A stretch of DNA of 64,000 bases from Catenulispora acidiphila DSM 44928 (GTDB lineage: Bacteria; Actinomycetota; Actinomycetes; Streptomycetales; Catenulisporaceae), in the NCBI RefSeq assembly GCF_000024025.1, contig NC_013131.1:6448001-6512000 (forward strand), in the 5' to 3' direction. Each line of letters opens with the position of its first letter. Within the stretch, counting starts at the first letter, position 1. This document shows, in pieces, positions 34,753 to 47,717 of the stretch. The position numbers were made by a program, and so were the translations under genes. Below the pieces are notes generated by a model. It ran no database searches, was not told the DNA's origin, and saw only the letters and a program-made list of their open reading frames with translations.

Positions 34753-36033
34753 TCAGCAGGCGCCGTCGTCCTTCCAGATGTTCCATGCGATGGCCGAGCC
34801 CGGCGTCACACCGGTCGACCAGTACGTCGCGGTCCACGAGTGGCCGTTGTACGACACGACGTCGTTCGGCACGTACGAGGTGCTCGCGCTCCACGGCGCG
34901 GCCGAACAGCTACCGCCGCCGGTGGTTCCGCCAGTGGTCCCGCCGGTCGTTCCACCGGTGGTCCCGCCCGTCGTGCCACCGGTCGTGCCGCCCGTGGTCC
35001 CGCCGGTCCCGCCACCGCTACCGGTGTACGGGACGAACGCGTCCGCGAAGGCCAGCTTGGCGTTGCCCACGCCGCTGCACGTCGAGGAGGCACCGCCGCC
35101 GGACCCGCCGGGGCACGGCTGGTCGCGGTCGATCGACCAGTACGCGAGCCGCCCGACGCCGTTGGCGGAGGCGAACTGCTCGACGGTGGCGGCGTTGGCC
35201 GCGGTGAACACCGAGCCGTCGTCGTTCACGCCGATCATCGGCGTGATGCCGACGTTGGCGTAGGTGTAGCTGGAGTCCACGGCCTTCATCTGCGCCAGCG
35301 TGCTCTGCGCGGCCTTGACCGCCGCCGCGCCCATGTCCTGCTGGCCCTGGTAGTAGTCCATGGTCATCAGGTTGACCACGTCGATCTTCACGCCGTTGTT
35401 CTTGGCGGTCTGCAGGATGTTGACGCCGTCCTGCGTCAGACCCGAGGGCAGCACCGGCAGCGTCATCGAGAACTGCAAGCCGGGGTTGGCGGACTTCAGC
35501 GCCTTCATCGCGGTGAAGTTCCGCGCGGCCGCGCTCTGGTCGGCCACGGCGGCGCCCTCGACGTCGAAGTCGAGCTGCTTCACCCCGTAGTCGCTGATGA
35601 TCGCCTGATAGCCGGCCTGGATCGAGGACTGGTTGGTGCAGGTCCAGGCCAGCGCCTCGCCGGCGGCGCCGCCGGAGGAGATGATGACCGAGGCGCCCTC
35701 GGACTTGGCGCGGGCGATCTCGGGGTCGGTGAAGGAGTCGTTGCCGACCGGGAGGGTGTCGCCCCACTCCTGGTTGCAGCCGACGCCGATGATGAAGGCC
35801 GCGGTGTAAGCCTTCAGGCCGTGGCCGGTGATCGCGGTGTCCAGGACCGGCTCCTGGCCGTTGGACATGTCGACGTACGGGGCGACCGAGAAAACGCTGC
35901 TGCCGGCGGCCGCCGCCTGCGGGCTGGCCGAGGCGCTGTGCGACAGCGCGGTGGCGGTGGCGGCTATCGCGGCGACGAGCAGTGCGCCGGACCGCACCGC
36001 CATGCGGCGGCGGCCCGGGCCTGGGGTCTTCAT
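34753..36033 (-). CDS. secreted GH18 chitinase with C-terminal CBM5/12
   Basis: 426 residues. A signal peptide with twin Arg (GRRRMAVRSGALLVAAIAAT) precedes a GH18 barrel with the SxGG strand (VIISSGGAAGE) and catalytic LDFDVEG (D-x-D-x-E; Glu near residue 155). A linker of GGTT repeats follows, then a carbohydrate-binding module of the CBM5/12 type (WSASTSYVPNDVVSYNGHSW). It would cut chitin outside the cell. ATG at 36033 with GGAAAGG upstream. It is divergent from a second chitinase; the shared 284-base region carries DasR-like sites, so both should be induced by chitin breakdown products (inference). Confidence 0.94.
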   Translation of the reverse strand: MKTPGPGRRRMAVRSGALLVAAIAATATALSHSASASPQAAAAGSSVFSVAPYVDMSNGQEPVLDTAITGHGLKAYTAAFIIGVGCNQEWGDTLPVGNDSFTDPEIARAKSEGASVIISSGGAAGEALAWTCTNQSSIQAGYQAIISDYGVKQLDFDVEGAAVADQSAAARNFTAMKALKSANPGLQFSMTLPVLPSGLTQDGVNILQTAKNNGVKIDVVNLMTMDYYQGQQDMGAAAVKAAQSTLAQMKAVDSSYTYANVGITPMIGVNDDGSVFTAANAATVEQFASANGVGRLAYWSIDRDQPCPGGSGGGASSTCSGVGNAKLAFADAFVPYTGSGGGTGGTTGGTTGGTTGGTTGGTTGGTTGGTTGGGSCSAAPWSASTSYVPNDVVSYNGHSWTATYWSTGVTPGSAIAWNIWKDDGAC

Positions 36034-44561: not shown

Positions 44562-45791
44562 CTAATCCGCCCACAGCACCTTCCCCCGAGCCGCGACGCG
44601 CTCCACCATCCGCTTCCCGGCCTCCGCCACCGACATGGGCTCCAGTTTCCGTCCGTCGCGCAGCCGGATCGCGACCGCGTCCGCAGCCGCCTCGCGTCCG
44701 CCGATGACCGCCTGGTACGGCACCAGGCGTGCCTCGCGGATGCGCGCGCCGAGGCTGCCGCGCTCGGGGTCCATCAGCTCCGAGCGCAGGCCGAGGTCGA
44801 GGCACAGGTCGTGGAACGCTCGGGCCGCGCCTGCCTCGTCCTCGCCGACCGGCAGGACCGCCACCTGCACCGGTGCGAGCCAGGCGGGAAACGCGCCGCC
44901 GTGCTGCTCGATCAGGTGGGCCACGACGCGCTCCATGCTGCCGACGATGCTGCGGTGGACCATCACCGGGCGGTGGCGGGCGCCGTCGGCGCCGATGTAC
45001 TCCAGGGCGAACTGCTCGGGTTGGTGGAAGTCGATCTGGACGGTGGACAGGGTCGACTCGCGGCCGGCCGGGTCGGCGATCTGGATGTCGATCTTCGGGC
45101 CGTAGAACGCCGCCTCGCCTTCGGCCTCCTCGTACGCCAGGCCCGAGGCGTCCAGGACCTCGCGCAGCATCGCGGTGGCGCGCTGCCACATCTGCGGCTT
45201 GTCGACGTACTTGCCGCCCGGGCCGGGAAGCGACAGCCGGATGCGGGCCGCCTCGATGCCGAGCGCCTCGTAGGCGTCGCGGATCAGCTTCAGCGCGTCC
45301 TGCGCCTCCTGCGCGACCTGCTCCAGGGTGCAGAAGATGTGCGCGTCGTTCAGGGTGATGGCGCGGACGCGGGTCAGACCGCCGAGCGCGCCGGACATCT
45401 CCGAGCGGAACATGCCGCCGATCTCGGCCATGCGCAGCGGCAGTTCGCGGTAGCTGTGCGCGCGGGAGCGGTAGATCAGCGCGTGGGTCGGGCACAGGCT
45501 CGGGCGCAGCACCATCTGCTCGGCGCCCAGATCCATCGGCGGGAACATGTCCTCGCTGTAGTGCGACCAGTGCCCGGAGATCTCGTACAGCTCGCGTTTG
45601 CCGAGCACCGGCGAGTACACGTGCTGATACCCGGCACGTCTCTCAACGGACCGGATGTACTCCTCCACCGCATGCCGTACCACCGCGCCGTCGGGCAGCC
45701 AGTACGGCAGCCCGGCGCCGATCAGCGGGTCGGTGTCGAACAGGCCGAGCTCGCGGCCGAGCCTGCGGTGGTCGTGCTGGATCTCGCTCAT
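44562..45791 (-). CDS. short threonyl-tRNA synthetase (no TGS or editing domain)
   Basis: 409 residues against about 640-660 for full ThrRS. It begins directly at the catalytic class II core: motif 1 region (YQHVYSPVLGKRELY), SGHWSHYSEDMF, CPTHALIYRSRAHSYRELPLRMAEIG, motif 2 FRSEMSGALGGLTRVR, and motif 3 (VMVHRSIVGSMERVVAHLIE), followed by an anticodon-binding domain (VAVLPVGEDEAGAA). TGS and N2 editing domains are missing, so mischarged Ser-tRNA could not be cleared by this protein. It is probably a second, conditionally used ThrRS; such short forms occur in Streptomyces and some confer resistance to ThrRS inhibitors. ATG at 45791 with GAGGAG. Preceded by a Thr leader peptide and an attenuator. 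Confidence 0.93.
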   Translation of the reverse strand: MSEIQHDHRRLGRELGLFDTDPLIGAGLPYWLPDGAVVRHAVEEYIRSVERRAGYQHVYSPVLGKRELYEISGHWSHYSEDMFPPMDLGAEQMVLRPSLCPTHALIYRSRAHSYRELPLRMAEIGGMFRSEMSGALGGLTRVRAITLNDAHIFCTLEQVAQEAQDALKLIRDAYEALGIEAARIRLSLPGPGGKYVDKPQMWQRATAMLREVLDASGLAYEEAEGEAAFYGPKIDIQIADPAGRESTLSTVQIDFHQPEQFALEYIGADGARHRPVMVHRSIVGSMERVVAHLIEQHGGAFPAWLAPVQVAVLPVGEDEAGAARAFHDLCLDLGLRSELMDPERGSLGARIREARLVPYQAVIGGREAAADAVAIRLRDGRKLEPMSVAEAGKRMVERVAARGKVLWAD

Positions 45792-45868
45792 GGGACTTCT
45801 CCTCGCTGGCATCAACTGGCATCGACTGACATCAGGTGTGCGGGAGGGGCGAGGGTCCCGGGAGAACG

Positions 45869-45902
45869 ACGAAGCCCCGGGGCACTCGCCCCGGGGCTTC
45901 GT
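45869..45902 (-). promoter_or_regulatory. attenuator hairpin of the short thrS gene
   Basis: A perfect 15-bp GC-rich stem (45888-45902 with 45869-45883) with a four-base loop, starting 14 bases after the leader-peptide stop and 78 bases before the synthetase start. On the minus strand it is followed by CGTTCT. A smaller CGCCGG/CCGGCG hairpin overlaps the leader codons and could compete with it. Confidence 0.75.
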
Positions 45903-45916
45903 TGCTGGTTCAGGAA

Positions 45917-45967
45917 TCAGCGCGCCGGGACGGTGTCCGGCGTCGTCGTCTGCATAGCGCGCTTCAT
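45917..45967 (-). CDS. Thr-rich leader peptide
   Basis: A 16-residue ORF, MKRAMQTTTPDTVPAR, with four Thr including three consecutive ACG codons, in front of the attenuator of a threonyl-tRNA synthetase gene. Ribosome stalling at the Thr codons when charged tRNA-Thr is scarce would favour read-through into the synthetase. The promoter places the transcript start at or next to its ATG, so it is likely a leaderless message. A shorter version from the second ATG at 45955 is possible. There is no T-box sequence. Confidence 0.75.
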   Translation of the reverse strand: MKRAMQTTTPDTVPAR

Positions 45968-45974
45968 GCCGTCA

Positions 45975-46003
45975 ACGGTAGCAGAGAGGTGGCAGACAGG
46001 TCA
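45975..46003 (-). promoter_or_regulatory. promoter of the Thr leader
   Basis: On the minus strand TGACCT (45998-46003), 17 bases, TACCGT (45975-45980). The expected start falls at about 45967-45968, on the leader ATG. Confidence 0.55.
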
Positions 46004-46016
46004 TACAAGGGATACG

Positions 46017-47717
46017 TCATGCAGATGACACGTCCCGCCGCCGGAACCCGACCAGCCCGACCGCCGAGAGAACCGCGGCCACCGCCGTCATCCACACCAG
46101 CGGCGTCCAGTGGAACACCCCGCCGGGAACCTTCGGAATGTGCGTGAACGGCGTCAGGTCCAAGAACCACTGCCCAGCGTTCACCAACGGGCCCAGATAA
46201 GCGATGAACACCAGCACGCCGAACACCCCATACGCCCCCGCCGTCCACTTCGGCATCAGCCCGAACAGCGCCACCGCGACCGCCGCGATGATCCACAACG
46301 CCGGCGTGGTGATCAGCCCGGCTCGCACCATCCGTCCGACCCACCCCCAGAAATCCCCCAGCACCGCCCCGGCGCCGACCCCCACCCCGAGCCCGCCCGC
46401 CGCCATCACCAGCGCGCTGCCGACCGCCGGGAACACCAGGTGGCTGCCCGCCCACGCCAGCCGCCCGGCCGACCCGGACAGCACCGGCTCGGCACGCCCC
46501 GAGGTCTCCTCCCCGCGCAGCCGCAGCACCGCCTGCACCGCGTAGAACGCCGCGGCCATCCCCAGGAAGCTGACGGCGGTCGCCAAGTAGGAGTCGGTCA
46601 GTCCCTGCACCCCGCCATAGCGACCGATGATCTTCTCAACCTGCTGATTGTCGTTCAGCAACTGGTCGATGCCCTTGGCGATGGATCCCATGACGATCCC
46701 GAACACGAAGATCCCAGCCATCCACCCCAGCAACGTCGGCTGCTGCAAACACCGCCCCAACCCGAACACGCCGCGCAACCCGGGTCCGGCACTCGCCGGT
46801 CCCGGACGCTGCGGCAACAGCCCGCTGCCCAGATCCCGCGCGTTCTGCACCCGATAGCCGACGGCAGCGGCCACGACCCCGGCGGCCAGCGTCACACCGA
46901 GGACCCACCACCGGTTCCCGGCCCACGGATGCACCCGCTCGATCCACCCGAACGGCGACAGCCACGCCACCCACCCGGCGCCGCCGCTGTTCCCCGCCGC
47001 GTCGCCGACCGTACGCAGCAGATACGCCACGCCGAGGACGAGCGCCCCGATCCCGTTGGCGGCGCGCCCGGTCTCGGTGAGCTGCACCGCGACCGCCTGC
47101 GTCCCGGCGAACGCCACGCCGACGGCGAACAGGCACGCCCCGAATGCCAGCGCGCCGCCCGCGCCCTGACCCAACGCCACCATCACCACAGCGGTTAGCA
47201 GCCCGATCCCGAAGCAGACGCCGACAGCGATGGAAAGCGCCGCGCTCAACGGCGCGTTACGTCCCACCGCGCCGGACCCGAGCAGCTCTAGCCGCCCGGA
47301 CTCCTCCTCGGCGCGAGTGTGCCGGGTGATCAGCAGGACCACCATGATGCCGATCAGCAGGCCGCCGAAACCCAGCGTGCGCCAGGCGGTCAGGGCGCCG
47401 AGGCTGTGGGTGTCGTAGAGCGGGCCGTACAGCGCGCGCAGCGAGGGGTTCGTGCCGATGCTGGCGCCGAGCTTGTCGCGGTCGCTCTGCGCCGGATACA
47501 GCTTCTTCAACGAGTACGCGGTCCCGCCGACGGTCGCCAGCAGCGCGTAGATCCACACCGGCAGCATGATGCGGTCGCGGTGCGAGGCGAGCTTGATCAG
47601 GGTACGAAGACCGCTGTCGGAGTCGGCCTGCGCGCCGGGTTCGGTGGCGAACTTGGAGGTCTTGGTGGAGGCCTTCTTGTCGCTCTTCTTCGGCTCCGAC
47701 GCCGTCTCGGCACTCAC
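46017..47717 (-). CDS. ABC-2 type exporter permease
   Basis: 566 residues with about twelve membrane helices in two halves, as in the actinobacterial 'polyketide antibiotic' exporter permeases. A Lys/Ser-rich cytoplasmic N-terminus (about 35 residues) precedes the first helix ([17 protein letters not shown]). Other helices include [30 protein letters not shown] and [18 protein letters not shown] at 47717 overlaps the ATPase stop as GTGA. It exports an unknown compound, possibly a drug, with the partner ATPase; the divergent MarR-type regulator probably controls both. Confidence 0.9.

Follow-up and report, generated by a model that had tools for sequence, protein, structure and literature searches.

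The window analysed here is a 64,000-nucleotide stretch of the genome of Catenulispora acidiphila DSM 44928, which comprises 10,467,782 bases on one contig. Its minus strand carries a gene for a short threonyl-tRNA synthetase (ThrRS), preceded by a small open reading frame with a run of threonine codons and by several predicted hairpins (Table 1). Read along that strand, the elements follow one another as a TGC-TACCGT motif, a 7-nt interval, the leader ATG, hairpin A, the leader stop codon, a 14-nt gap, hairpin B, element C, hairpin D and the ATG of the synthetase gene. The leader comprises an ATG start, 16 codons in all and a TGA stop, with threonine at codons 7, 8, 9 and 12, the first three of which are ACG, and the stem of hairpin B is a perfect 15 bp closed by a 4-nt loop. 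A first-pass annotation, made from the sequence alone, had described this four-threonine leader with its three consecutive ACG codons, the 14-base gap to a perfect 15-bp hairpin, and a second small hairpin overlapping the leader codons, and each of these is present.

Table 1. Features of the short ThrRS locus, in window coordinates.
Feature	Position	Strand	Basis or remark
-10-like hexamer TACCGT, TGC directly before it	45975..45980	-	7 nt from end of hexamer to leader ATG
Leader ORF MKRAMQTTTPDTVPAR*, ACG ACG ACG at 45949-45941	45917..45967	-	sequence; kept in relatives
Hairpin A, CGCCGG (45942-45937) / CCGGCG (45928-45923), begins within the third ACG	45923..45942	-	
A3' segment GUCCCGG, alternative partner the B 5' arm CCGGGGC (rather than A5')	45925..45931	-	
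Hairpin B, 15-bp stem ACGAAGCCCCGGGGC / loop GAGT / GCCCCGGGGCTTCGT, without U-tract	45869..45902	-	
Segment of the B 5' arm and loop, GGGGCGAG, able to pair with element C instead	45885..45892	-	covariation, 133 sequences
Element C CTCGCCCC, partner either the B 5' arm and loop or the Shine-Dalgarno region	45846..45853	-	
Hairpin D, GGGACCCTCGC (45859-45849) with GCGAGG (45806-45801) and GTCCC (45796-45792), covers part of the Shine-Dalgarno region	45792..45859	-	MFE fold and covariation
Short ThrRS gene, product of 409 aa	44562..45791	-	ATG at 45791

The 186-nt region folds at -84.6 kcal/mol, compared with a mean of -67.6 in 200 dinucleotide shuffles (z -4.3), and none of the 200 folds better. 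Generic scans of 45700-46300 for sigma-70 promoters and U-tract terminators returned no match, and no Rfam family, including the T-box and the Thr leader, matched in the window at its gathering score. Upstream on the same strand, an open frame that reads as a transporter permease ends at 46017. Elsewhere in the window a tRNA-Ala (ggc) is predicted at 35156-35245, its 90 nt being long for such a tRNA.

By Pfam, the short ThrRS consists of a catalytic core and an anticodon-binding domain, with a sub-cutoff HisRS match and neither a TGS nor an editing domain, as the first-pass annotation had proposed in calling it a synthetase that lacks editing. TIGR00418 scores 459.9 on it (cutoff 383.65), matched from position 169 onward. 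A second ThrRS gene, with a full-length, 673-codon frame whose product is 43% identical to the short ThrRS, lies elsewhere in the genome, and the short gene is therefore a paralog.

Conservation of the leader and its link to the short gene

The short ThrRS is present in 12 of 14 genomes of the host's family, 172 of 391 of its order and 62 of 394 in a sample of its class. In the phylum sample, 37 of 386 genomes pass the same cut-off, and 25 of these 37 belong to a single family of another class (f60), with frames of 572-723 codons. The 25 ThrRS of that family are full-length by size and 44-48% identical to the short enzyme; judged by sequence, they are a possible source of the short paralog.

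Leaders of the TTTPxxVPAR type precede the short gene in 77 of the 80 named loci. The other three have 17 bases of upstream sequence (L052), 105 bases with the end of a leader visible (L111), and 158 bases (L060). The last of these, from Streptomyces inhibens, has B and D and no leader before the contig ends, which may be a true loss or an assembly artefact. A threonine-run leader is likewise found in 20 of 21 order loci (the exception, L039, has a misread offset) and in 11 of the 12 loci of the family (the contig breaks off at L008), and a threonine leader in 67 of the 68 loci L129-L196 (L172 is too short), with three threonines in 65 and two in L190 and L191; the named, order, family and L129-L196 sets overlap in some genomes. 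Codon use varies little, the second and third threonines of the 77 leaders being always ACG and the first ACG in 71, ACT in 5 and ACC in one. Conservation of these codons in relatives was the test that the first-pass annotation had set for its own reading, and the codons are kept; the leader pattern with a hairpin for which it proposed a search ahead of other short ThrRS genes recurs in many actinobacteria in the TTTPxxVPAR form.

Because the leaders are conserved to this degree, chance is excluded as their origin. The locus might otherwise have been taken for a fortuitous open reading frame beside the terminator of an upstream ABC-transporter gene, a reading to which the permease-like frame on the same strand lends itself. 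The element, however, is found with the short ThrRS in different genera and, as regards layout, outside the class as well; this conservation refutes the transporter-terminator reading, to which we give practically no credence.

A -10-like motif is conserved along with the leader. A TANNNT hexamer lies 5-10 nt before an in-frame start in all 173 extracted leaders (6-7 nt in 163), and TG occupies the extended -10 place in 143 of the 173. Shuffled upstream sequences gave a mean of 4.0 in 173, in a control that tried one start per locus where the real search tried all in-frame starts. The 173 leaders come from 178 loci tried; L143 and L173 were omitted for want of a gene start, and L008, L039, L052, L060, L111 and L172, with short or misread upstream sequence, were left out of the leader counts or the extraction. 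Since TACCGT ends 7 nt before the leader ATG in the window, the transcript is probably leaderless, and the start at the leader ATG predicted in the first-pass annotation thus gains support.

The strong conservation of TTTPxxVPAR would also suit a leader peptide that itself arrests the ribosome through its C-terminal VPAR. Frameshifts in L159 and L187, however, destroy VPAR while the RNA of the A3' segment is retained; variants ending in PPAR, VLAR and VPAPR exist, and five distant loci described below have no VPAR. The frameshifted leaders with their RNA kept disfavour peptide arrest, which we regard as very improbable.

The leader appears to be tied to the short gene. We used 133 leader sequences to build a covariance model (123 positions), which finds a match in all 172 short-ThrRS genomes among the 391 of the order (matches were counted per genome, and some of these genomes also built the model). 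It also matches in 16 of the 219 order genomes that have no called short ThrRS, at 17 places. Nine of these (L201, L202, L204-L209 and L211), judged by reading, are whole or partial leaders whose ThrRS gene is lost, truncated or broken; of the others, L203 lies at a contig end and seven (L210, L212-L217) are weak. L207 has B and D and no A. From these matches the short gene seems to have disappeared repeatedly and to have left its leader behind, and no use of the leader by a different gene was observed. In the host genome the model gives one strong match only (E 2.9e-18), the next, at E 0.02, being the same place on the opposite strand, followed by one at 0.03 and weaker ones, and we rejected the idea that the leader serves other genes. 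The same control was likewise rejected for the full-length ThrRS, the TTTP motif being absent before all 14 full-length genes of the family; a longer open reading frame with TTT occurs before three of these (L002, L016, L021) and one with TT before three more (L023, L025, L026). In L145, L151, L156 and others, the short ThrRS match was flagged with one in-frame TGA, possibly an alignment running beyond the stop codon.

Helices of the leader RNA and their dependence on ribosome position

Covariation was assessed in a main alignment of 133 sequences, 22 of the 155 distinct leader regions having been omitted by hand (long inserts, close relatives of retained rows, and the distant L179, L180 and L181). 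The strongest signal belongs to the helix between element C and the B 5' arm and loop, where 95.1% of cells are paired and 48 show changes on both sides, compared with 11.8 after shuffling; none of 500 shuffles reaches 48, and slid controls give at most 18. The co-changing variants include CGAGTG/CACTCG, CAAGTG/CACTTG, CGGGTG/CACCCG, CGGATG/CATCCG and CGAATG/CATTCG. Hairpin B is paired in 92.4% of cells, with 27 two-sided changes against 5.1 in shuffles and 32 in one slid control. Hairpin D is paired in 84.8%, and its 28 two-sided changes (11.8 in shuffles) exceed all 500 shuffles; slid controls reach 25, close to 28, and D is therefore less strongly supported. Taken alone, D is not clearly more stable than its shuffles (z -0.7 in the window, -0.4 to -2.4 across seven sequences). 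The aligned sequences thus show the leader and the predicted elements A, B, C and D, with compensatory changes in B, in the pairing of C with the B 5' arm and loop and, less strongly, in D.

The A3' segment is able, by its sequence, to pair either with A5' or with the B 5' arm. Hairpin A (99.9% of cells paired) and the A3':B5' helix (97.4%) are nearly invariant in the 133 sequences and carry no covariation signal. The pairing of A3' with the B 3' arm is almost invariant as well (97.2%), and because both A3' pairings vary so little the main set cannot separate the B 5' arm from the B 3' arm as its partner. Duplex folding of the window helices gives -11.2 kcal/mol for A, -12.2 for A3':B5', -34.4 for B, -16.1 for B5':C and -17.1 for D.

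The effect of ribosome position was modelled both in nascent RNA and at equilibrium. In RNA that extends to the B loop, a ribosome masking any of the three ACG codons brings the A3':B5' pairing above a probability of 0.5 in 166 of 167 leaders (mean 0.97), compared with means of 0.35 without a ribosome and 0.00 with a ribosome at the stop codon. When half of the B 3' arm has emerged the values are 0.63-0.77 under a stall and 0.07 without, and once the whole of B is out they average at most 0.02. With the A3' region shuffled, the pairing still averages 0.49 and exceeds 0.5 in 95 of 167, so that part of the A3':B5' signal reflects GC content. At equilibrium, in 76 loci (L116 and L128 being excluded), the probability of B averages at least 0.98 and that of an unpaired Shine-Dalgarno sequence about 0.33 at every ribosome position tried; in L064 a stall lowers Shine-Dalgarno access from 0.38 to about 0.1. 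A simple thermodynamic switch is ruled out by these averages, which do not change with ribosome position. Since the full leaders show no equilibrium change and A3':B5' is gone once B is complete, any switch must be decided during transcription.

The locus has the arrangement that marks an attenuator, a short open reading frame with a run of codons for the regulatory amino acid upstream of a gene for that amino acid, and we judge it reasonably likely that the element works as a leader-peptide attenuator, with charged tRNA-Thr as its signal and an accessory, editing-less ThrRS as its target. Of the first-pass reading, the threonine-codon leader and the competing hairpin stand, but the output is probably not simply a terminator, because element C covaries with the 5' arm and loop of B and has the Shine-Dalgarno region as a further possible partner. 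B lacks the U-tract of a trp-type terminator in the window; of the 77 named loci, 76 have a longest T run of 0-3 within 10 nt after B, and one, L114, where the stem is delimited short, has a run of 5. Given the two alternative partners of C, control probably reaches translation initiation and not termination alone.

We suggest the following sequence of events. With ample Thr-tRNA the ribosome would reach the stop codon and B would form at once, so that C, left unpaired, would close the Shine-Dalgarno region in the form of hairpin D; B may also terminate part of the transcripts. With scarce Thr-tRNA the ribosome would stall on the three ACG codons and cover A5', and A3' would keep the B 5' arm engaged until RNA polymerase had passed. 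Element C would then pair with the 5' arm and loop of B, which would leave the Shine-Dalgarno sequence open and allow the backup synthetase to be made. The order of pairings, A5'-A3'-B5'-C-SD, taken alone predicts the reverse, in that a stall, by forming A3':B5', frees C to close the Shine-Dalgarno sequence, and the ON state must therefore be kinetic or act through relief of termination. We suppose either that A3' keeps the B 5' arm occupied up to the arrival of C or that the gain lies in transcription past B; this is the weakest point of the model.

Outside the class, we examined seven matches from the phylum sample, L218-L224. In L224 (genome G783, from another class) the short ThrRS is 75% identical and has a standard leader, MKRAGMTTTPESVPAR; comparison of the sequences would fit either a recent transfer or contamination, which stands at 5% in that genome. 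L222 is full-length and has no TT leader. The five distant loci that read as short enzymes (L218, L219, L220, L221 and L223) are 48-59% identical, the L219 gene containing two stops. Their leaders (MQHLRALTTTTGAVPEV in L218, MAGLRSTTTTTGLPPAVCRVR in L219, ...VPTTTPERSGVHV in L220, ...SPQTTTGSHPSAVRR in L221 and MFSALATTTPEISGAR in L223) hold 3-5 threonine codons, ACG with ACC in addition in L218 and L219, and a hairpin directly after the threonine run is followed by a second GC-rich hairpin, so that only the layout is kept. The A stem differs in L218, L219 and L221 while occupying the same place, and its core is identical in L220 and L223. Complementarity between A3' and B5' reaches 7 bp in L218 (P 0.006 against shuffles) and 6 bp in L223 (P 0.044) and does not exceed shuffles in L219, L220 and L221; that between B5' and C reaches 10 bp in L218 (P 0.002) and 9 bp in L221 (P 0.009) and does not exceed shuffles in L219, L220 and L223.

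A reading confined to transcription attenuation, in which B is an intrinsic terminator without a U-tract, A3':B5' the antiterminator, and C and D incidental, draws on several of these results. The succession of A, A3':B5' and B resembles a trp-type attenuator, the A3':B5' pairing is stall-specific in nascent RNA, and in four of the five distant loci (L218, L220, L221 and L223) visual comparison, with G-U pairs allowed, shows A3' matching the B 5' arm no worse than the B 3' arm, or better; against shuffles the A3':B5' match is distinct in L218 and L223 only. Against this reading stands the missing U-tract, a U-rich tail being absent also from the S. lividans thrL hairpin in the part of Droste et al. 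(2021; PMC8079986) that concerns it. In addition, the strongest covarying helix, between C and the B 5' arm and loop, lies beyond the point of termination. We consider an attenuator that acts on transcription alone unlikely, if far from negligible.

The short enzyme, borrelidin contacts and promoter-level input

We compared 104 short ThrRS that have a called start or match start, those of the window and of 103 relatives, with 13 full-length enzymes (L026 was omitted). The Cys, His and His that we take to bind zinc, and two motif Arg, are kept in all 104 short enzymes. At the place of E. coli L489 and human L567 every one of the 104 has Gln, where the 13 full-length enzymes have Leu (10), Glu (2) or Gln (1), and at the place of human Q566 the short enzymes have His in 102 of 104. 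At the place of human M411 (Ser98 in the window), Ser in the short enzymes faces Met in the full-length ones, in at least 97% of each, and at the place read as human Q460 (Leu147 in the window) the short ThrRS have Leu instead of Gln, as does S. aureus ThrRS.

These places, which cover part of the 18 borrelidin contacts, include residues described by Fang et al. (2015; PMC4389257), who in the sections available to us list M411, Q460, Q566 and L567 as contacts changed in resistant archaeal enzymes, report that mutation of the E. coli enzyme at H309 and L489 raises the Ki 300- to 1,000-fold, and point out that in S. parvulus the ThrRS, which is self-resistant, has other residues at the Q566 and L567 places. 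Taken with these data on resistant enzymes, the changes at borrelidin contacts make tolerance of the short enzyme to borrelidin plausible. By sequence, the short ThrRS appears nearer to S. aureus ThrRS than to the full-length enzyme of its own genome (403.5 and 317.4 bits, respectively, from different programs). The inducible, indolmycin-resistant TrpRS of S. coelicolor is a parallel case.

A further input may exist at the promoter in some relatives. A GAAAW box, searched with the sixth base free in 25 bases of sequence, is found in 43 of the 137 loci with enough upstream sequence (for example L062, L066 and L073), and in 40 of the 43 it lies 32-34 nt upstream of the -10 hexamer, compared with a shuffled mean of 2.2. 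This spacing fits the geometry of WblC sites, which the extract available of one study gives as GAAAWY placed 3 nt before the -35 (PMC7157823). The same extract places S. coelicolor thrS2, which may be the short paralog, in the WblC-activated regulon (PMC7157823). SCO3778, a threonyl-tRNA synthetase, is listed as a sigma-E binding target in ethanol-stressed cells in the accessible part of another study (PMC10771440).

The WblC-type box and the WblC activation of thrS2 could be taken to mean that the leader senses ribosome-targeting antibiotics or a general slowing of translation, in the manner of the WblC/WhiB7 upstream open reading frame. The residues kept outside the class are nevertheless the threonine codons, and a box of this type would act at the promoter; reading of the sequence upstream of the leader in the window revealed none. 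We consider antibiotic sensing by the leader improbable, and return to an attenuator that responds to charged tRNA-Thr, through which the short ThrRS would be induced when charged tRNA-Thr is low or when a ThrRS inhibitor is present.

Relation to known systems and implications

The first-pass annotation knew of no described case for this gene class, a statement that does not hold. For S. lividans TK24, Droste et al. (2021; PMC8079986) list a thrS that is preceded by a leader, thrL (MKRVRPFLETTPGFVPAR), with leaderless transcription and one hairpin that lacks a U-rich tail. The likeness extends to the MKR...TTP...VPAR pattern of a threonine leader before thrS; thrL has two threonines, as do the short-ThrRS leaders L190 and L191, and its thrS may be the short one. 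The entry as available, one table row and a paragraph, contains no alternative pairings, Shine-Dalgarno element, conservation survey or paralog. Attenuators of trpS and leuS in Streptomyces were predicted by Seliverstov et al. (2005; PMC1262725), who in the part available found no conserved structure for threonine operons. They resemble the present element in setting a leader peptide with regulatory codons, an antiterminator and a terminator ahead of an aminoacyl-tRNA synthetase; the leuS and trp terminators, however, have poly-U behind them, and that part describes no chain that closes the Shine-Dalgarno sequence.

According to the available text of Korolev et al. (2016; PMC4833913), a 2010 attenuation survey from their own group, by Lopatovskaya et al., outlines helix chains and overlap with the ribosome-binding site; it covers amino-acid and synthetase operons. 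That survey may already include thrS, which makes priority uncertain. Anabaena likewise induces a second ThrRS under stress, in its thrS1/thrS2 pair, but there the duplicated gene is under Zur control at the promoter during zinc limitation, and the excerpt available describes no leader peptide (PMC4787780). Nothing on actinobacterial thrS appears in the available portions of the S. clavuligerus Term-seq paper (PMC8269248) or of Naville 2010 (PMC2965389), and a literature search of openly licensed papers found no description of element C or its spread.

Leaders of the erm type, which attenuate translation, also rely on alternative hairpins, by which ribosome stalling exposes a Shine-Dalgarno sequence further along the RNA, as we propose here, but those leaders sense an antibiotic, unlike the amino-acid codon run of the present element. 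What is already known, then, is the idea of a thrL-thrS attenuator in S. lividans and, elsewhere in Streptomyces, of attenuators for trpS and leuS. Judged by the openly licensed literature, the new points are the breadth of the element, the helix chain, the WblC-like box in some loci and the fixed substitutions at borrelidin contacts.

Taken together, these observations lead us to a wider proposal, which we hold tentatively and with some doubt. A widespread chain of five segments, A5'-A3'-B5'-C-SD, in which a single B 5' arm has three mutually exclusive partners, would couple stalling at threonine codons both to transcription past B and to exposure of the Shine-Dalgarno sequence of a backup ThrRS that tolerates inhibitors and lacks editing. 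With a WblC-type promoter added in some relatives, the chain would act as a defence that ThrRS inhibitors induce.

Synthetase attenuators of actinobacteria, so far as we found them in print, are predictions in one or a few species, those of trp and leuS with poly-U terminators. The element described here is traceable from genus to genus and, as a layout, outside the class, with strong covariation for a downstream anti-sequestor, and it offers a testable case for the idea that leader-peptide attenuation in GC-rich bacteria works partly through closure of the ribosome-binding site. A backup ThrRS without the usual proofreading domain, and with fixed changes where borrelidin binds, would be induced by stress. 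If this is true, these bacteria would possess an inducible defence that trades lower proofreading for survival under ThrRS inhibitors.
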